From positions 62,001 through 126,000 of the forward strand of contig NZ_JAPDOD010000011.1 in NCBI RefSeq assembly GCF_027587205.1: 64,000 nucleotides of DNA, written 5' to 3'. Shown in pieces: positions 49-62,082 of this stretch (within the stretch, counting starts at the first letter, position 1; every line of letters starts with the position of its first letter). The notes under the pieces were generated by a model. That model ran no database searches and was not told where the DNA came from. It was given only the letters and a program-made list of their open reading frames with translations. The DNA comes from Solirubrobacter ginsenosidimutans (lineage in GTDB: Bacteria > Actinomycetota > Thermoleophilia > Solirubrobacterales > Solirubrobacteraceae). The position numbers were made by a program, and so were the translations under genes.

Positions 49-831
49 CTATCGCGATGACGGGAGTGGGCGAGCGGGCTCACGACGTTTATGGGGCAAT
101 GCCGACATCGGATCCGACGTGCTCGACTGGGTCGGAACCGGTAGCCGCCATGTCCTTTCAGTTGCGGCCGCGGGCGACCTGATTGGCAACGTGCCCGGCG
201 GCCCGCCTACCTTCGGCGCGGGTTTTGTGTCGCGTTCAAGCAGTCCGGTCGCCGGGCCGAGCAGGAACCACGTGAGCAGCACCGCGAGCGCGAGGATTAC
301 CTCGTTCCGCGCTGCCTCCTGCAGGTTGACGATCCGCTGGGTCCGGCGGGTGTTTGCCTGGGCGGCCTCGACGGCCACCTGTGCGAGGTGCTGCGTGGGC
401 GACGGCAGACCGGCGGCGAACTCAAGGTCGGCGACATCAATCGTGGACCGCTTCTGCGGACCCACCAGGTAGAGCGGGACGGCGAGCGACCATGCCGCGT
501 ACCACAGAGCCAACCCGAGCAGTGCTTTGCCGATGAGCGTGGCGTCATCGCCGGCCTCGACGATGGCGGCGCCGATTCCGGCGGCGATGATCGCCGACAC
601 CGTGACTAGTCCCGGCCCTTTAGATTCGAGGCTGCGCAGGCGGTCCTCGCTACGCGTTAGCAGCGCGTTGGCCTCTTGCTGAGCCCAAGGCGCCTCGGGC
701 AGATTTGGGACGTCGAGCTCGTCGCACAGATAGAACCGGTTGACGTACCAGTTCGTCGCCGTCGGGAACACGTATTCGAGCGGCTCCCATAGGATCACCG
801 ACTGCCACCAGTTCGGTCGCCTGTGGGTCAC
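49..831 (-). CDS. Three-helix membrane protein, third gene of putative graspetide operon
   Basis: I do not recognise a named family. The 260-residue protein has an N-terminal soluble stretch rich in aromatic residues (NWWQSVILWEPLEYVF near residues 7-22), a charged helix at about 50-72, then hydrophobic segments at about 74-92, 99-123 and 177-195. A Gln/Asn/Arg-rich helix (AAQANTRRTQRIVNLQEAARN) precedes the last one. The C-terminal ~60 residues look disordered. I chose the GTG at 831 because it overlaps the stop of the upstream ATP-grasp gene by GTGA, implying translational coupling; a longer reading frame upstream is inside that gene. The helix layout recalls small membrane effectors of conflict systems (2TM/SLATT-like), but that is only a resemblance. 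Its position suggests a role in export, immunity or action of the peptide product. Confidence 0.72.
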   Translation of the reverse strand: MTHRRPNWWQSVILWEPLEYVFPTATNWYVNRFYLCDELDVPNLPEAPWAQQEANALLTRSEDRLRSLESKGPGLVTVSAIIAAGIGAAIVEAGDDATLIGKALLGLALWYAAWSLAVPLYLVGPQKRSTIDVADLEFAAGLPSPTQHLAQVAVEAAQANTRRTQRIVNLQEAARNEVILALAVLLTWFLLGPATGLLERDTKPAPKVGGPPGTLPIRSPAAATERTWRLPVPTQSSTSDPMSALPHKRREPARPLPSSR

Positions 832-1766
832 TGGGTGAGCTCTGCGGCGATCGCCTCGGCGATCGGAAGGCCGGCAGCGTCGAGCCACCCCCACTCGCCG
901 TTGGGGTTGAGCTCGCAGAACCAATGCTCGCCGTCAGCGTCGACGAGCAGATCCACGCCCGCGAAGAGCAGACCCAGGTCGGCGACGAGCAGCACGCAGC
1001 GCTGCCGTATCTCCGGCGGCAGCTCGTATGGCGCCCACATCGGGGTGTCGGCCAGGCGCCAATCAGGTTCGTCGATCGTCGCGTCGTCGGTGACCGCAGC
1101 GAACGCCGCCGTCCCGACAACGGTCACGCGAACGTCGCGCTTGGCCTCGATTCGCTGCTGGAATGCCAGCGGGGCGGGCGCGAGCGAGTCGGGCCGTGGG
1201 AGCCCGGCGGTGCCAATCGCATGCGCGAAGACGAAATGCGAGGTGTCGTCGTGCTCCCAGTACGCCGTAGCCGTGGGCTTGGCGATCCCGTGGCCCCCGT
1301 GCGCCACAAGTCGCTGCTCGGCGGCGATCACGTCGTTAGTCCACGTTGTCGCCGGAACGCGGAAGCCGGCGGCAGCAGCGGCGACGAGCTGGCGGGCCTT
1401 GTCGTCTGCGACGCGAATAGCACTCGGGCGGGACATCCAGCGAGGACCGTCGACGTGCTGCAGCGCGCTGATCAGCGTGAACTGGTGGGCGCAGATCACC
1501 GCCCACTCCTCATCGGCAACGTCGCGAGGCGTCGCCGCCGACTCCGGACGACGCCACCACACGCCGCTGCAGCCTTCGCTATGAAGTCGACGCCCATGGC
1601 CCTCGAGGGTCCACGCCCGCCCCGGCTCGACGGCGATCCGCCAGGACTCGAACCGTTCGGTATTGAGCCGCACGACGCCGTGATCGCGCCGCACGAGCTC
1701 GCGGACGACGAGGTCGGCTTCGACGTCGTGCTCGTTGGTAACGATCAGGACGCCGCGATGACTCAC
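828..1766 (-). CDS. ATP-grasp ligase of the MvdD/graspetide-synthetase type
   Basis: The 312-residue protein resembles RimK-like ATP-grasp enzymes that install omega-ester or omega-amide links between side chains of a ribosomal peptide. Supporting features: an N-terminal pre-ATP-grasp domain (GVLIVTNEHDVEADLVVREL), a WWRRP motif near residue 70 typical of this subfamily, a central ATP-binding region (DDKARQLVAAAAAGFRVP; GIAKPTATAYW), and the C-terminal Mg/ATP signature CELNPNGEWGWLD at about 284-296, close to the (E)VNPNGQWxWLE form of graspetide ligases. Length fits the family. The GTG start overlaps the stop of the small upstream gene by four bases, and its own stop overlaps the next GTG, so the three genes form one unit. 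Ligase family is confident; the exact peptide substrate is inferred from synteny. Confidence 0.88.
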   Translation of the reverse strand: MSHRGVLIVTNEHDVEADLVVRELVRRDHGVVRLNTERFESWRIAVEPGRAWTLEGHGRRLHSEGCSGVWWRRPESAATPRDVADEEWAVICAHQFTLISALQHVDGPRWMSRPSAIRVADDKARQLVAAAAAGFRVPATTWTNDVIAAEQRLVAHGGHGIAKPTATAYWEHDDTSHFVFAHAIGTAGLPRPDSLAPAPLAFQQRIEAKRDVRVTVVGTAAFAAVTDDATIDEPDWRLADTPMWAPYELPPEIRQRCVLLVADLGLLFAGVDLLVDADGEHWFCELNPNGEWGWLDAAGLPIAEAIAAELTQ

Positions 1767-1993
1767 AGCTTCTGGTCCTCACCGACCTCGCGGTCGGCCT
1801 TCTTGGTCTGCGAGCGCTGATCGGTGTCGATCACCGCGATGTAGGGCTCGGCCAGGTAGGTCATCTGGGCCCCGTCGTCGTACGTGACGCCCTGCAGCGG
1901 CTCGCGTGCGCCGCGTTGTTCGGTGGCGAGGTCGAGCAGCCATGGGCGCCCGCCGCTTTCACTATTTGCCATGACGTTGACGCTATCGGCCAC
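1763..1993 (-). CDS. Putative graspetide precursor peptide
   Basis: A small gene directly upstream of, and overlapping by GTGA, the ATP-grasp ligase gene. From the GTG at 1993 it encodes 76 residues; an ATG at 1972 would give 69 (MANSES...). Neither start has a good ribosome-binding site. The leader-like half carries RPWLLDLA, recalling the RP[FW]xLR motif of ATP-grasp target peptides. The C-terminal half (IDTDQRSQTKKADREVGED) offers Thr/Ser/Lys acceptors followed by Asp/Glu donors, as expected of a graspetide core. No cysteines for lanthionine chemistry and no export signal are seen. Precursor status is inference from position, size and composition. Confidence 0.75.
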   Translation of the reverse strand: MADSVNVMANSESGGRPWLLDLATEQRGAREPLQGVTYDDGAQMTYLAEPYIAVIDTDQRSQTKKADREVGEDQKL

Positions 1994-2233: not shown

Positions 2234-3673
2234 ATGACGGTGCAGAATTCGGAGCTGTTCGCGGCGGTGAAGGCGGTCGTGCTCGACGCCCGGGCAGTTG
2301 TCCAGGAGCATCTGGCCGCTGGAAAGTTCGTGCCGACGTTCTCCGACTGGATGAAGATCGACCACTTCAAGTCCGGCTTTCCGCATCTCGTGCGGGACTT
2401 CGACGCGAAGGTGTTCCGCTTTGGGGAGTTGCTCGGTCCACGTCCGAATACATGGACTCCGTACGGCTACGAGGACTGGGAATCGTTCAAGGAGCTTCTG
2501 GCCATCGTTGAACGCGACGATCGCCTCGGCTCATACTTCGGCGCCCACGCACAGGCCAATGTGCCCGACAACTTCAAGCGCCTGTTTTTCCTGATCAATG
2601 TCGGCGAAGTGCCGACACAGGTCTTCGAGAGGACGGTGCACCTCCACGGTCCAGACTTCCGCGAAGAGGACATCGAGCCCATCTACGAAGAGGTCGAGAC
2701 CGCGATCCTCGTTGAACAGCTACCGATCGCCATCGTCGTCCCGATCGCGTTGACGCACTTCGAGACACCGAGCGTTCTGCCTGTCGCGGACAACGTCGTC
2801 ATCGCGAAGCTACTTGATGACCTGCAGCTCGCGCGAGCGCGAGGATCTAGCTCAGGGGCGACGGTGAATCAGACTGTCGTCAATGCGGCGACGCACGCGC
2901 TCGTGCTGCTCGGATGGCAGATGACCTCGCCGAATCCGTTCCAGCCGGGGCCGTCGGACATGGGTTGGTATCCCGCCGAGATCATCGATCGCTTCTTCGA
3001 CGCGCTTCGCGTGGTCACCGGCCTCGAGACCGGATACGCGCAGGCCTTCGTGCGGCCGCAGGGATGGGCGCGCAGCTACACCGCCGATCTCCCGCCGGTT
3101 GTGAATGGAATCGCCGTGCGGCGCTACCCAGCGCCTTTCGAGCGATACGGGTGGCTCGATGCTCGTCCCCCCGTAACCGATGACCAAATTGCGGAAGTTG
3201 CCGCCCTCTACACCAACCTCGCGAACGCACCGGACGGCGGCACTCTTCCCCTCGCCGCCGGCCGACTGAGCGACGCGATGCTCCGCGACAACGACCGTGA
3301 CTCCATCCTTGACCTCGTCATCGGCCTCGAGGCGATCCTCGGCGACCAGACGACGACCGAGGTCACGCACAAGCTGGCACTACGCGCGGCAGCGGTCCTC
3401 GCGCGTCTCGATGAGCAGGCCGCCGATCCGAATCAGGTGTTCGCGGCGGTCAAGCACATCTACGGCTATCGTTCCGCAGTAGCCCACGGAAACGCGAGAA
3501 ACGTCGCCAGGAAGCAGAGCATCCAGGTCGGCGAGCAAGAGATTCGCACCGTCGATCTCGCCACCACCTATCTCCGTCGCGTGATCGATGCGCTCGCGCG
3601 CCGACCAGAACTCGCCGGCGGTGCGGACATCGACCGTCACGTGATCCTGGACGCGCTTACGGTAAAGGAATAA
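2234..3673 (+). CDS. Apea-like HEPN-domain protein
   Basis: A 479-residue protein whose C-terminal third resembles the Apea-like HEPN domain: a conserved GLEAILGD helix, then YGYRSAVAHG at about 410-419, with the R...H pair (R413, H418) of HEPN RNases. The first ~300 residues match no family I know. The ATG at 2234 is chosen because protein-like composition begins there; the frame extends upstream but reads as Arg/Pro-rich filler. HEPN proteins often act as RNA-cleaving effectors in defence or toxin systems, though Apea-like ones are also found as stand-alone proteins of unknown role. It is followed 276 bases later, same strand, by a second large protein with a HEPN-like motif, and faces away from the graspetide operon. 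Confidence 0.72.
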   Translation: MTVQNSELFAAVKAVVLDARAVVQEHLAAGKFVPTFSDWMKIDHFKSGFPHLVRDFDAKVFRFGELLGPRPNTWTPYGYEDWESFKELLAIVERDDRLGSYFGAHAQANVPDNFKRLFFLINVGEVPTQVFERTVHLHGPDFREEDIEPIYEEVETAILVEQLPIAIVVPIALTHFETPSVLPVADNVVIAKLLDDLQLARARGSSSGATVNQTVVNAATHALVLLGWQMTSPNPFQPGPSDMGWYPAEIIDRFFDALRVVTGLETGYAQAFVRPQGWARSYTADLPPVVNGIAVRRYPAPFERYGWLDARPPVTDDQIAEVAALYTNLANAPDGGTLPLAAGRLSDAMLRDNDRDSILDLVIGLEAILGDQTTTEVTHKLALRAAAVLARLDEQAADPNQVFAAVKHIYGYRSAVAHGNARNVARKQSIQVGEQEIRTVDLATTYLRRVIDALARRPELAGGADIDRHVILDALTVKE

Positions 3674-3949
3674 CGCGCCCCGGCCGAAGTCGGGACGCAC
3701 CCGCCAGATAGTTAGCCGCTGGTCCGTGCGCGCCAGCAGTGCCATCCACTCCTGCTGGGGTGGTCGCGCGGTTGGCTCTTCCGAGGCGGCGGCTCGAGTC
3801 ACACCGGAAGGTCTTCCGTAGCGACCATCGCGATCAGGACTTGGCGCACCGCTTCGATGACGTCGGCTTGATCGAGCTTGCGAGCGACCGACCCAAGGAC
3901 CGGCGTATCGCAGGAACGTCCGGAGGTATCGGTATTCAGCCGGGGGTCG

Positions 3950-5827
3950 ATGACCGCCTCTGACGATCCGATTTGGTTTCGTGAGCTCAAACCGGCCCTG
4001 CTCGAACGCTGGAGACGGCCCGCATCAATGGGGGTCGACCTCGAGCCGAGCGACGTCGCCGATGAGTTTGCGGAGTGGGTCGACGATGACTCTCGTTGGG
4101 CAGCGCTTGGCAGGGGCGACCGCGATTGGCGCTCGCTCTTGGGCGACGTCGTCGCGTCATGGTCGTTGCTGGGAGCGCATCTCGAACGTGTGATAGCTGC
4201 CGCGCCGCATGTCGCGGCACTGGAACGGGTTCTCGCGGCGCAACGGGTCAAGGAGGGTCTGCATCGGAGAGCGATCTCCGATGCCGCGGCGCATTTGGCC
4301 GGTGGCCTCGTCCAACCCGGCACGCTACTCGCTGCGTTCGAGGACCTTCTCGAAGCGGCGGAACAACACGTCCGTCCCGGCTCGCCCGCGCCGGCGGTGC
4401 GCTGGCACCTGGCGCTTTTGGCCTCCGCTGGCGAGCGACATGGACACGATTGGTCGGTCGTCGCCGACCGGCTTCGTAACGCCGTCGAGTGGTTTCCCGA
4501 CACTCCGTTCGAGAGTCGGCTTGATACCGCCCGTACCGCACTTCAGGCCGATGCGAGGCAGGGCCGATCCGTTGTCTGGCTGTGCGTCGATCATGCCTCA
4601 GCGTCTGAACCGTCCTCCGACCCCCGCGTCGAGCTCTTTGACGGAGACTGGCTACTCGCGGTGCTCGGCGTGTGGACTGGACAGCGGGCGGGAGTGCCGC
4701 CGGAACTGGCGGCCGATCCCGAGGTATTGGCGAGGGCGTGGCCTCGCCTTCACCCTGAGCAACCGGTCCAGGAGCAAATCCCCGTCGTGTTCGCGCGCGT
4801 CGATCTCGGGGACGGCCCTACGGCCGGGGCCCGTGATCGAGCGCGGGACACGCTTGAGCTACTCCTCGCTCGCGCATCGGTTCTGCAAGGTGGCACAAAT
4901 TGGCGGATCAGCGGCAAGGTCATCCATTTCGTCGACGGCGATGCCGTGTTCGAGTCGTCCGGTCCGGTTGGCGACCCCGACATCTACACGCGACTAAGCC
5001 GTACCGACGTGATCCGCGACCCGACAGCGGAAACCATCAAGCGAGAGCTCCCCCGCCTTCGAGCCCACCTCCCAGTGACTGATCGCCGGCTACGCGCGGC
5101 GCTTCAACTCAACCAGTGGCTCCACGACGCGCGGCGGACCGGTCCGCCGGCCCGGCTCGTGCTCTCGAGCCGAATCATCGAGCAATGTGCGCGATGGGCG
5201 GATCTCAGCCCTCCCGCATTCGTGGCTGACAACCTCGCTTGGTCTTGGTGCTGGGCGCAGGTCGCCGACGAGCTCGAACGCGCTGGTCGCGAGGCGGTGG
5301 ACAATATGCGTGGGCACAGCGGAGCCACCACTACACCAGAGGAGCGTGCGGCCTTCCTGAAGGTGAGCGCGGAGATCTTCCGACCGGACCGCGACTCGTG
5401 GCGCCCGCGCGTCTACCCGTGGAAGGTCCTCGAGAGACTCAGCTGGCTCATCGCGCGGTTTCCCCCCGACGGCTGGATCGGAGATTGGCTCATCGACCTC
5501 AGCGCACGGACGGCCGACGGATCGACCGTCTTCTCCTGGCTCAAGCGACTCGAGTCCGAGTTCACGACGCAACATGCCAGAGCCGTGCGCACCCGCAACG
5601 TCATCGTTCACGGTGGTCCTCTGCTTCTTCCGACGGCCCACTCGATCGTTGGCTTCCAAGACGAGGTCGCCGCGCACGCGCTCGAATCCACGATGGACGC
5701 CCTGCTTCGCGAGACAACGGTTGTCGAGCACTTCGCGGAGCAGCGGCGGCGCTACAACGACGCGCTCGAGACGCTGCGGCTCGGTGGCGACCCGGCGAAG
5801 GCGTTGCGAACACCGCTTGGCGACTGA
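3950..5827 (+). CDS. Large protein with C-terminal HEPN-like motif
   Basis: A 625-residue protein of no recognised overall family. The ATG at 3950 follows a GGGGGT purine-rich stretch and starts a sensible sequence (MTASDDPIWFRELK). Helical, charged and without membrane segments or a signal peptide. Near the C-terminus, VRTRNVIVHGG (R549, N550, H554) has the RN-x3-H spacing of HEPN catalytic motifs, followed by a helix (DEVAAHALESTMDALL) typical of the domain's last helix. Since the preceding gene also ends in a HEPN-type domain, the pair may work together. No nucleotidyltransferase partner (as in MNT/HEPN modules) is visible nearby. Function unknown; HEPN call moderate. Confidence 0.65.
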   Translation: MTASDDPIWFRELKPALLERWRRPASMGVDLEPSDVADEFAEWVDDDSRWAALGRGDRDWRSLLGDVVASWSLLGAHLERVIAAAPHVAALERVLAAQRVKEGLHRRAISDAAAHLAGGLVQPGTLLAAFEDLLEAAEQHVRPGSPAPAVRWHLALLASAGERHGHDWSVVADRLRNAVEWFPDTPFESRLDTARTALQADARQGRSVVWLCVDHASASEPSSDPRVELFDGDWLLAVLGVWTGQRAGVPPELAADPEVLARAWPRLHPEQPVQEQIPVVFARVDLGDGPTAGARDRARDTLELLLARASVLQGGTNWRISGKVIHFVDGDAVFESSGPVGDPDIYTRLSRTDVIRDPTAETIKRELPRLRAHLPVTDRRLRAALQLNQWLHDARRTGPPARLVLSSRIIEQCARWADLSPPAFVADNLAWSWCWAQVADELERAGREAVDNMRGHSGATTTPEERAAFLKVSAEIFRPDRDSWRPRVYPWKVLERLSWLIARFPPDGWIGDWLIDLSARTADGSTVFSWLKRLESEFTTQHARAVRTRNVIVHGGPLLLPTAHSIVGFQDEVAAHALESTMDALLRETTVVEHFAEQRRRYNDALETLRLGGDPAKALRTPLGD

Positions 5828-5980
5828 CGTCCAGCGTCGCAATGGTGACGGCGCTCTGGCGAGTCGCCGTTCGGTTCCTCCCAAAGACCCTGGTCTCCTA
5901 TCGCGACAACACCCGTGACAACATCCAGATCGTCCAGAGCGTCCAATGTGTTCCCTCGCGTGGAAAGAATCGACCGCATA

Positions 5981-6070
5981 GAGCAAAACGGCACGGATCG
6001 GGCAGGTGCGAACCAGGTTGAGGGCCTGGTCCGGGATAACCGGGTGGAGGTTCGAGTCCTCTTCGGCGCA
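5981..6070 (+). pseudogene. tRNA-Leu(GAG)-like relic
   Basis: An intact anticodon arm (CCAGG, loop TTGAGGG with anticodon GAG, CCTGG), long variable arm (CCGG GATAA CCGG), T-arm (GGAGG TTCGAGT CCTCT) and acceptor 3' strand TCGGCGCA are all readable. A D-stem GCAC...GTGC is also present. The 5' acceptor strand is missing: the bases before the D-arm (GAGCAAAACG) do not pair with TCGGCGC. It therefore cannot fold as a normal tRNA and is best read as an attachment-site relic. CCA is not encoded. Confidence 0.65.
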
Positions 6071-6076
6071 TCGCAG

Positions 6077-6100
6077 AAAGCCCCGCTACGGCGGGGCTTT
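6077..6100 (+). terminator. Stem-loop after tRNA-Leu relic
   Basis: Perfect 10-bp hairpin, AAAGCCCCGC with loop TACG and GCGGGGCTTT, ending in a short T run. It resembles the natural terminator behind a tRNA gene and was copied along with the relic; the second copy (12434-12457) carries a mismatch. Confidence 0.7.
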
Positions 6101-6163
6101 CGTCGTTCTCGGCCGACTCTGTCCCGCGGGGGACAACATTCCGTGACAACGCCTCTGGCAACT

Positions 6164-6184
6164 GGGGAACAACCCGTGTTCCCC
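6164..6184. promoter_or_regulatory. Inverted repeat upstream of integrase
   Basis: GGGGAACA, five-base spacer, TGTTCCCC: an 8-bp perfect inverted repeat 27 bp before the integrase ATG. A further GTGTTCCCC follows immediately. It could be an operator controlling the integrase or another integrase-binding site. Confidence 0.45.
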
Positions 6185-6211
6185 AGTGTTCCCCACCACT
6201 GGGAGGCCGCC

Positions 6212-6784
6212 ATGAGCGTGCACTACGAACGAAACCGGGACCGCTGGGTCGTCCGGTGGCGCGAAAGCGGACGGCAGCGATCGCGGACGTGCGCAACGGA
6301 GGCCGAGGCGCAAGAGTTGGATTGGACGCTGAACCCGCCGGATGCCTCGCGCGACGTCGTCGAGGAAGCGCGGTTCAACGATCCGAGACCGTCGCCCGGC
6401 GACCAGTCGGGCGTCTACGCCTATGCGACCAGTGCCGGCACTCGCTGGCGCTTCGTCTACCGGCAGTCCGACGGACGGCTCACGACCCGTCGCGGCTTCA
6501 CCAGTCGCAGCGCAGCCTTGACCGCCCGCGGTATCGCCCTCGAAGAGGTCCGACGCGGCGAGATCCGCGCCACGCCCGACACGTTCGGCGAGTTCTGGAA
6601 GAAGCTTCTCGAGGCCAAGCGCCCGTACATCACGCCCGGCACGCTGCAGGATTACGCGACGCACGGGCGCAAGCGGCTCTTGCCATGGTTCGGCGAGCTT
6701 CGACTTGTGACGGTGTCGTACAGCAACCCGTGTCGAATCGGCTCGGCCGCGTCCGCGGCGCCGCGCGACTCCTCTTCGAGCTGA
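6212..6784 (+). pseudogene. Truncated tyrosine integrase (N-terminal half)
   Basis: Starts MSVHYERNRDRWVVRWRESG, the N-terminal arm-binding fold of phage-type integrases, followed by an AP2-like repeat (SGVYAYATSAGTRWRFVYRQ) and a core-binding helix region (FGEFWKKLLEAKRPYITPGTLQDY, about residues 127-150). After RLLPWFGELRL (~165) the sequence turns into unrelated residues and stops at 190. The catalytic domain with R...H-x-x-R...Y is absent, so it cannot recombine DNA. The break coincides with the 3' end of a minus-strand gene, suggesting an illegitimate junction near 6712. ATG at 6212 follows GGGAGG. Confidence 0.78.
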
Positions 6785-6999
6785 CGGCGCTGTTCGGTGT
6801 AGGTCGCCTCGAGCTCAGCGAGCCGGCGTCGTGCGGACGCCTCGGCCGGCGTCTGCAGAGAGTCGATCACGACGCCCGGCGCCCGCACTCGTCGCAGTGC
6901 TCCGGGTACGTGTTCAGCAAGCGCGCGGGTGACCAGCCAGTCCAGCACGGTGTCCGGATCGGTGGCATCGGGGATCACGTACCAGCGCTGGTCGCCCAT
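6652..6999 (-). CDS. Hypothetical protein with coiled coil, 3' end altered
   Basis: From an ATG at 6999 the frame reads MGDQRWYVIPDATDPDTVLDWLVTRAL..., with a Glu/Arg-rich probable coiled coil (ASARRRLAELEATYTEQRRQLEEE). From about 6712 to its stop it reads the antisense of the integrase, so the natural C-terminus was lost at the junction. It lies just downstream of a ribbon-helix-helix gene on the same strand, which suggests a mobile-element accessory pair. No family recognised; start uncertain because a longer frame overlaps the upstream gene. Confidence 0.4.
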   Translation of the reverse strand: MGDQRWYVIPDATDPDTVLDWLVTRALAEHVPGALRRVRAPGVVIDSLQTPAEASARRRLAELEATYTEQRRQLEEESRGAADAAEPIRHGLLYDTVTSRSSPNHGKSRLRPCVA

Positions 7000-7081
7000 C
7001 CGGCGGCGGAGGGGCCAGGGTCCACTAGGCGATTGACCGGCCAGAACTGGTGGCGTCCCCGCGGCCCAGACCGCGTGCGGG

Positions 7082-7372
7082 CTAGCTGTCTTGTCGGTCC
7101 TTCGCAGAAGCGGAGCGTTTGCGTCCGGCGCCCGCCCGCGGCGGCCCCGGCGGGTCGACCTCGGCGAGGCGGCGGATCTCGCGGGCAACGGCGAGCAGGT
7201 CGTGGGCGGTGTGGACGGCCTGCTCGGCGTAGTCCAGGTCGTCGAGCACAGCGCGGATCAGGGCAGCCTCGCGGACGTACTGCGACACGCTGATCCCCTG
7301 CGAGTCCGCCGCGCGAGCGATTGCCATATAGCCCCGGTCGCCGAAGCGGATCGTCGTCGCGTGCAGGGCCAC
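7082..7372 (-). CDS. Ribbon-helix-helix / MobC-like protein
   Basis: A 96-residue reading from GTG 7372 containing TIRFGDRGYMAIARAADSQGISVSQYVREAAL, the beta-strand/helix/GxSxSxYVREA pattern of ribbon-helix-helix DNA-binding proteins, common in plasmid mobilisation accessory factors and antitoxins. The Lys/Arg-rich tail (AGAGRKRSASAKDRQDS) may contact DNA. The frame is open up to 7483, so a longer start is possible. Found beside an integrase remnant, it is likely cargo of an integrative or mobilisable element. Confidence 0.55.
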   Translation of the reverse strand: MALHATTIRFGDRGYMAIARAADSQGISVSQYVREAALIRAVLDDLDYAEQAVHTAHDLLAVAREIRRLAEVDPPGPPRAGAGRKRSASAKDRQDS

Positions 7373-61374: not shown

Positions 61375-62082
61375 GTGGTCGCTGCCCGGTCCGAACCGTC
61401 TCAGGAAGAGATCCGCGCGGCCCGGCGCGAAAGCAGGCTCCGGGAACGCTACGGGCTGCTCCTCGCCTCGCTCGTGGTGCTGTTCATCGTCCAGGGCGTC
61501 GCGCCCGGTGGTCCGTGGCAGGAGGTCCTGATCACCGCCCTCAGCGCGAGCACGCTCGTGCTCGCGTTGCGAGCGGGCGAGGTGAGCCTGCGGATCGTGC
61601 GGCTGGCCGTCGTCGCCGGCGCGATCCTCGTGGCCACCGTCGCGGCGCTCGCGCTCGCGGACACGACGAACACGGGCGCCGCGCGGATCGCGAGCGGCCT
61701 GCTGGTCGCTGTCGCGCCGCCGGCGATCGCGATCGGCGTGCTCCGCGGCCTGCGCGCCCGTGGGCATACGACGGTCCAGGCAGTGCTGGGCGTCCTGTGC
61801 CTCTACCTGATGTTCGGCCTGTTCTGCGCGTTCGCGTACGGCACGATCGACCACCTGGGCGGCGCTCCCGTCTTCGCCAACGACGTCGCCGCGACGACGG
61901 CCCACTGCCTGTATTTCAGTTTCGCGACGCTCACCACGGTCGGCTACGGCGACGTGCTCACGCGCTCTGACCTGGGCCACACCTTCGCAGTCACCGAGGC
62001 GCTCGTGGGGCAGGTCTACCTCGTCACCGTCGTCGCGCTGCTCGTCTCCGACCTCGGGTCGCGGCGCACCCACGCCCCGTAG
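61375..62082 (+). CDS. Potassium channel family protein
   Basis: 235 residues. Six hydrophobic segments: four before ~125 (RYGLLLASLVVLFIVQGVA; VLITALSASTLVLAL; IVRLAVVAGAILVATVAAL; GLLVAVAPPAIAIGVL), then AVLGVLCLYLMFGLFCAFAYG and AVTEALVGQVYLVTVVALLVSDL. Between the last two lies a pore loop with the selectivity filter TTVGYGD (187-193). The S4-like segment has few charges, so voltage sensing is doubtful. No cytoplasmic RCK domain. GTG start at 61375. Confidence 0.88.
   Translation: MVAARSEPSQEEIRAARRESRLRERYGLLLASLVVLFIVQGVAPGGPWQEVLITALSASTLVLALRAGEVSLRIVRLAVVAGAILVATVAALALADTTNTGAARIASGLLVAVAPPAIAIGVLRGLRARGHTTVQAVLGVLCLYLMFGLFCAFAYGTIDHLGGAPVFANDVAATTAHCLYFSFATLTTVGYGDVLTRSDLGHTFAVTEALVGQVYLVTVVALLVSDLGSRRTHAP

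Follow-up and report, generated by a model that had tools for sequence, protein, structure and literature searches.

The analysed window is a 64,000-nucleotide stretch of contig NZ_JAPDOD010000011.1 of Solirubrobacter ginsenosidimutans (positions 62,001 to 126,000). Near its beginning, three open reading frames (ORFs) lie in series on the minus strand in the order precursor peptide, ATP-grasp ligase and membrane protein, with start/stop overlaps between neighbours. According to our analysis, the trio is one instance of a recurring graspetide-type cassette, and it may act as a cell-defence switch rather than make an ordinary exported peptide. The genes and their junctions are as follows:

1763..1993, minus strand: precursor peptide gene, GTG start, 76 amino acids (aa); an in-frame ATG at 1972 is a possible alternative start
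828..1766, minus strand: ATP-grasp ligase of the graspetide synthetase type, GTG start, 312 aa (profile matches, AlphaFold2 (AF2) model, fold match)
49..831, minus strand: membrane protein with three predicted membrane helices, 260 aa (AF2, hydropathy, profile comparisons)
1763..1766, minus strand: GTGA in which the precursor stop and the ligase start overlap, read from the sequence
828..831, minus strand: GTGA in which the ligase stop and the membrane protein start overlap, read from the sequence
1776..1780, minus strand: GAGGA within the core Glu-Asp codons, by its sequence a possible ribosome-binding site of the ligase

The initial annotation had described a compact graspetide-type operon with two GTGA overlaps, and both overlaps are in place at 1763-1766 and 828-831. 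The mechanical call of the membrane protein ORF was 49-924 with a TTG start; the GTG start coupled to the ligase at 831 reduces it to 49-831. Also as described there, the layout holds no methyltransferase, protease or ABC exporter: in Pfam, NCBIfam and PADLOC, the trio and the next two ORFs (2234-3673 and 3878-5827) matched no recognised protease, methyltransferase or exporter model, nor any pyrimidine cyclase model. Searches for tandem repeats, promoters, terminators and Rfam families yielded no useful result.

The ligase contains GVWWRRPE and ELNPNGEWGWLD, and the precursor ends in the tail TDQRSQTKKADREVGEDQKL, both as quoted in the initial annotation. Two ligase motifs stand out in the 32-row alignment A1:

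1545..1559, minus strand: WWRRP motif, residues 70-74; W71, R72, R73 and P74 invariant
891..914, minus strand: ELNPNGEW motif, residues 285-292; E285, N287, P288, N289, G290, E291 and W292 invariant

K123, K163, K209, D272, E285 and N287 are likewise unchanged throughout A1, and residues 285-292 presumably belong to the ATP/metal site region, as in ATP-grasp enzymes generally. Among 7994 scored candidates, 185 were ligase relatives at E<=0.001. In NCBIfam, models of graspetide maturases score best (TIGR04187, E 6.4e-63; TIGR04185, E 3.3e-47; TIGR04184, E 4.9e-39). The ligase stays below their curated cut-offs, with 212.8 versus 350 bits for TIGR04187 (GRASP_SAV_5884) and, for the MvdC/MvdD models, 161.2 versus 425 bits (TIGR04185) and 134.4 versus 475 bits (TIGR04184); rimK_fam reached E 6e-11 and 42.2 bits against a cut-off of 143.4. 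When a profile of 32 ligase sequences was compared with the PDB, AMdnB, MdnB, MdnC, CdnC, 9bou (PruB) and PsnB were matched at E 1.8e-58 to 4.3e-25, whereas LysX/RimK chains reached no better than 2e-7. The AF2 model (predicted local distance difference test, pLDDT, 91.1) gave Foldseek template modelling (TM) scores of up to 0.84-0.86 with CdnC, AMdnB and MdnC, 0.71-0.79 with PsnB and 0.61-0.67 with RimK. The PDB E-values and TM scores rule out a RimK/glutathione-type ligase. As judged from profiles and predicted fold, the enzyme is a graspetide synthetase, in agreement with the earlier assignment. One ligase relative of 370 aa (P0038) carries a C-terminal extension that starts NWWQRVLV..., like the beginning of the window membrane protein, and may represent a ligase and a membrane protein joined by fusion or frameshift.

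In the precursor, a leader and a core are recognizable:

1925..1945, minus strand: leader motif PWLLDLA, residues 17-23, corresponding to PFLxRFA of the relatives (alignment A3)
1775..1807, minus strand: core TKKADREVGED, residues 63-73, presumed crosslink site (alignment A3 and conservation in relatives)

T63, K64, K65 and E69 are unchanged in 11/11 rows of A3, and the leader resembles the Phhx(1,2)h motif of graspetide precursors (PMC8939145). An independent profile of nine precursors from other phyla, with the window and its relative L001 excluded, was scored on all window ORFs of at least 25 aa; the window precursor ranked first of 694 (E 0.0038, the next 0.06), with TKKAD.E.GED.K falling in register, and this rank rules out a chance ORF. 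Upstream of related ligases lies a protein of ~75 aa with the pattern PFLxRFAxxCxSPGRA...YxYDxxxDMVRWxG...P.A....GPxTKKxDxEKGEDxKDRRMW, seen in Pseudomonadota, Myxococcota, Planctomycetota, Verrucomicrobiota, Acidobacteriota, Bacteroidota (partial) and the salt-loving archaeon Halorubrum. The window precursor is more divergent than the best-scoring relatives and is without the DRRMW end; leader and core are kept.

A database search with the precursor alignment yielded 387 relatives at E<=0.001, archaeal names included. Core conservation was counted in the best 120 of these 387, where the core T, K, K, E, K and W and the last D do not vary, TKK.[DN].E.[GS][ED][DE] fits 118 and a DRRMW-like end is found in 94; across all 387 it may be lower, because the counted set comprises the best-scoring members. 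In the alignments of relatives, Thr/Lys and Asp/Glu of the core stand at conserved positions, as expected of a graspetide locus, and the conserved T...D/E core that the initial annotation had named as potential support is kept in the TKK type as T-K-K...D...E...E-D. A core that is nearly invariant across phyla appears unlike that of a diversifying antibiotic.

The layout is a recurring cassette and not a singleton, as far as sequence comparison can tell. We assembled 63 ligase rows by hand from a genome scan led by patterns, samples of phyla, and plasmid and phage matches picked individually. The membrane protein lies directly downstream (start at most 400 bases from the ligase end) in 24 of the 63, a count that is no frequency because the rows are a mixed, hand-picked sample. 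The small acidic-tailed gene that the initial annotation expected upstream of homologous ligases is there in 23 of these 24; none was seen in L021, in which the ligase is truncated. Twelve of the 24 have TKK-type precursors (window, L001-L008, L010, L014, L016), eight carry repeats that are of TKT type or degenerate, for example TKTxxxxExDD (L022-L026, L040, L104, L046) and three, all from Chloroflexota, have precursors ending in ETTDD (L009, L012, L013). By eye, a PFLxRF-like leader is kept in many related precursors. Two of the Chloroflexota loci (L009, 5578-5996; L013, 800-1171) each carry two tandem precursors ending in ETTDDR ahead of ligase and membrane protein.

On a tree of 60 ligase rows, the partner membrane protein requires 6 changes, as compared to a mean of 18.5 in 500 shuffles, none of which was as low. 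The deep branches of this tree are weak, and it is compatible with a single origin of the partnership. The membrane protein is missing from 37/60 rows, so graspetide synthetases as a whole can do without it. This count bears on the possibility that the membrane protein is a biosynthetic partner, anchoring or stabilising the ligase at the membrane where the peptide is needed. Partner-dependent graspetide synthesis does exist, as described for rosaritide and corallotide, and the membrane protein gene of the window overlaps that of the ligase; the known partners, however, are a PPIase-like protein and an oxygenase, neither of them a membrane protein (PMC13097080). Together with the many rows without the membrane protein, this makes such a role improbable in our view.

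The window ligase groups with L001 (Shimodaira-Hasegawa-like approximate likelihood ratio test, SH-aLRT, 92). The clade of TKK-type loci comprises 10 rows (SH-aLRT 97), and an archaeon is nested in it between bacteria from several phyla, a pattern suggestive of transfer. The spread is patchy. In Pseudomonadota, 4 of 150 genomes, the starting one included, had the ligase (E<=1e-20) and two of them (G010, G163) the membrane protein; in Actinomycetota, the ligase occurred in 23 of 296 genomes and the membrane protein in two of these (G001, G347). In each of two genome samples, the TKK precursor was detected only in the respective starting genome (1/398 and 1/396), by searches that may miss small genes. 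Plasmid-borne cassettes occur in Croceicoccus, Sinorhizobium, Agrobacterium and Pseudomonas, and a Leptospira phage carries a cassette flanked by regulator genes, with a ParB-like gene nearby. Scanning viral contigs with the precursor gave 46 pattern stretches and no confirmed relative, two ligase scans of viral contigs both led to a single contig, which lacks the membrane protein, and a plasmid search with one membrane protein of the TKK clade gave no match. The cassette regions L010/L100 and L011/L099, from metagenome-assembled or other genomes labelled Zoogloea and Oryzomicrobium, are almost identical and have an STK_OB kinase gene just upstream; they suggest that the genomes are close kin or that the region was transferred recently.

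A peptide that serves regulation or stress inside the cell, acting on a housekeeping-like target and with no tie to phages or rivals, would agree with the near-invariant core of the best 120 relatives and with a membrane partner in relatives from several phyla. The very patchy distribution and the plasmid and phage locations fit accessory rather than housekeeping genes, and we consider this explanation very improbable. We propose instead that the three genes form a self-contained, mobile cassette.

Graspetide loci with membrane or otherwise unmatched partner proteins are already known (Makarova, 2022, PMC8939145; Carter, 2026, PMC13097080), and the layout that the initial annotation called probably unclassified may fall among them. 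Uncharacterised membrane proteins of thuringinin loci form cluster 18 (198 occurrences), for which transport has been suggested (Makarova, 2022; PMC8939145), and some graspetide groups have partner proteins that match no model (Carter, 2026; PMC13097080). By description, these loci likewise combine a precursor, an ATP-grasp ligase and an uncharacterised (membrane) protein. Group 34 of Carter (2026) also has long repeat precursors (PMC13097080), and our TKT type could belong to it. With MdnB/MdnC, AMdnB, CdnC, PsnB and PruB, the window shares the ligase fold and motifs, an adjacent small precursor, a leader like PFFARFL/Phhx(1,2)h and a core of Thr/Lys with Asp/Glu. In contrast to MdnB/MdnC-type systems, the window trio has a dedicated membrane protein instead of an exporter, protease or methyltransferase, its cross-phylum clade has one near-invariant core, and its ligase stays under the curated NCBIfam cut-offs.

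These comparisons raise the question of an ordinary secreted graspetide, a protease inhibitor or competition peptide that the ligase cyclises, a host protease frees of its leader and the membrane protein exports or confers immunity to. Characterised graspetides are described as protease inhibitors, and the membrane proteins of cluster 18 as likely transporters (PMC8939145); the repeated cores of the TKT-type relatives recall multivalent graspetides, and the PycTM homology of the window's own clade, discussed below, is weak. Speaking against secretion, neither a known exporter, ABC type included, nor a protease was matched in the trio, the TKK clade keeps a single, nearly unchanging core (best 120 of 387), a three-helix protein of 260 aa seems small for a transporter, and the surroundings include plasmids, a phage and defence genes. 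We regard a secreted graspetide as a serious but rather unlikely alternative to an intracellular defence cassette.

The AF2 model of the membrane protein, based on 63 rows (pLDDT 82.8; predicted TM score, pTM, 0.68), has long helices at residues 48-93, 99-122 and 145-200, with hydropathy peaks at residues 75-93, 105-123 and 178-196. One conserved motif precedes the membrane helices:

619..651, minus strand: SEDRLRSLESK, residues 61-71, an S-E-x-x-R-x4-E-x-K motif before the first membrane helix (alignments A2/A4)

R64 and K71 are nearly or fully invariant in A2/A4. No model in Pfam, NCBIfam or PADLOC fits the window protein. Profiles were therefore compared by hhalign with 11 PycTM proteins, with reversed and five shuffled controls. 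The whole membrane family reached 87.9%, the TKT clade 90.8% and the family without the window clade 72.5%, while reversed controls gave at most 3.7% and the five shuffles at most 0.1%. Among the cassettes, the window clade matched the TKT clade at 90.9% (reversed 0.2%) and all other clades at 90.6% (reversed 0.8%), the TKT and TKK clades matched at 99.4%, and a hidden Markov model (HMM) lacking the window clade found L001 at E 0.0034. On these clade-to-clade and PycTM profile scores, the membrane proteins of the cassettes are probably one family, which is probably, but not certainly, a remote relative of PycTM. The profile alignment with PycTM pairs an x-K-A motif ahead of the first membrane helix and K-x-x-L-x-x-A ahead of the last. 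DUF2207_C reached 3.4% with the whole family. A SLATT-family effector was considered and rejected, as SLATT_5 matched 3/68 members weakly (best E 0.51) and a SLATT_1 profile of three sequences gave 0.2%; a genome search with SLATT_5 matched nothing, controls included, and is uninformative. A fold search with the model gave no match at E<=0.001, and VIA-align found nothing beyond generic long helices, which is uninformative; no PycTM structure was among the fold matches listed, which excludes nothing.

A near-invariant core across phyla, no known exporter or protease, translational coupling and a membrane partner together favour an intracellular peptide-effector pair. We tentatively posit, at somewhat less than even confidence, that the trio is an intracellular conflict or defence cassette in which a cyclised peptide controls the membrane protein. 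The leader PWLLDLA would dock on the ligase, which would form rings by crosslinking the side chains of Thr/Lys with those of Asp/Glu within the core TKKADREVGED. The product would stay in the cell and meet its presumed partner, the co-translated three-helix membrane protein, which it would most likely keep inactive. Phage infection or another stress that halts synthesis or removes the peptide would free the membrane protein to damage the membrane. Such logic would be that of abortive infection or a toxin-antitoxin pair. It resembles Panoptes (OptS/OptE), in which a small molecule made by the operon, a cyclic dinucleotide, keeps a membrane effector inactive until phage removes the molecule (PMC12657218); the analogy is one of logic only. 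In a variant of opposite sign, the peptide would trigger opening, as in Pycsar, where PycTM is reported to disrupt membranes once activated by cyclic pyrimidines (PMC11224242). We infer both the sign of control and the trigger. As compared to Pycsar, with its PycC cyclase and PycTM effector, the window has an ATP-grasp peptide ligase and a peptide but no cyclase, and whereas transport has been proposed for thuringinin cluster 18, we propose an effector.

Several results weigh against this defence reading. PycTM (PF18967) gave no direct Pfam match at E<=10 to the window protein or to eight family members, including P0128, whose precomputed PF18967 label our scan did not reproduce. Taken alone, the TKK clade reached 21.8% with PycTM and the window clade 4.9%. 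DUF2721 reached 39.4% with the whole family and, with the TKK clade alone, exceeded PycTM (27.4% versus 21.8%); it remains a weak alternative affiliation. The window clade matched the TKK clade at only 15.0% (reversed 0.5-0.6%), and the HMM lacking the window clade found the window protein at E 1.5. Furthermore, PycTM-type systems have a cyclase, and none was seen in the trio or the next two ORFs, which also had no PADLOC match. The company of defence genes, described in the following, is suggestive, and as a test it falls short of formal enrichment: control regions, too, had restriction and other models among the matches listed, with mad2 on both sides.

We compared 11 cassette regions (11.4-20 kb; 113 neighbour ORFs of at least 200 aa, cassette genes excluded) with ten control regions of 20 kb (100 ORFs) in these genomes, using PADLOC at E<=1e-8, with 25 of 102 families listed on the cassette side and 25 of 92 on the control side. 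Among the matches listed, the cassette side had TIR of PDC-S66/ThsB type (2), STK_OB, TerY with PP2C, type III restriction, Shedu, Lamassu A and B, PDC-S20, HEC-06 and mad2 (2); the control side had a type IIG restriction enzyme, methyltransferases, PD-T4-6 (kinase-like), mad2 (3), mad6 and an oxidoreductase model (3). Single-protein PADLOC scans covered 20/113 neighbours, with L092, L093, L094 and L098 unrepresented, and placed defence-model matches in at least 5/11 regions (L096, L097, L100, L101 and L102, the last with methyltransferase models only), namely Shedu, Lamassu with type III restriction, TIR/PDC-S66, STK_OB and HEC-06. The proteins of L091 and L095 that were scanned singly had no PADLOC match.

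A broader claim, that this is the first immune or conflict system to signal by a ribosomal, ATP-grasp-cyclised peptide gating a PycTM-like membrane protein, and that it has spread horizontally across bacteria, archaea and a phage, seems to us doubtful, though worth stating. RiPP families have been linked to phage defence in general in a metatranscriptome study (PMC11118758). In the graspetide and RiPP literature on phage defence, membrane proteins, abortive infection and defence islands, the cassette was not found among the open-access matches listed, and the parts covered of the graspetide papers cited here contained no link between a graspetide and a PycTM-like effector. If true, the cassette would be a peptide counterpart of the cyclic-nucleotide signalling of Pycsar and Panoptes. 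It would add an intracellular role to graspetides, known chiefly as secreted protease inhibitors, and would extend immune signalling from nucleotides to modified peptides, all within three genes that together take up <2 kb.

Further observations concern related loci and the surroundings of the trio. In L131 (the same place as L065, G191:C61), a precursor-like ORF ends in SKKADLETGEDQKSE, with Ser replacing Thr, and the adjoining ligase ORF is truncated, overlapping with a large ORF that contains Rhs-like repeats. On a Pedobacter plasmid (L105, 4001-8096), an ATP-grasp ligase gene lies near lasso peptide biosynthesis genes, and on a Ligilactobacillus plasmid (L106, 3866-6310), a distant ATP-grasp ligase precedes a SagB/ThcOx dehydrogenase and a small protein. 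In the window, the large plus-strand ORFs 2234-3673 and 3878-5827 had no Pfam, NCBIfam or PADLOC match worth naming; by eye, each contains one RX4H motif (RSAVAHG and RNVIVHG) reminiscent of HEPN RNases. Beyond them, a tRNA-Leu (gag) at 5991-6070 is overlapped by an integrase-like ORF (5915-6784) that scored 21.3 bits with Phage_int_SAM_3, just under the Pfam cut-off of 22.6, and that may continue in another frame as ORF 6256-7293.

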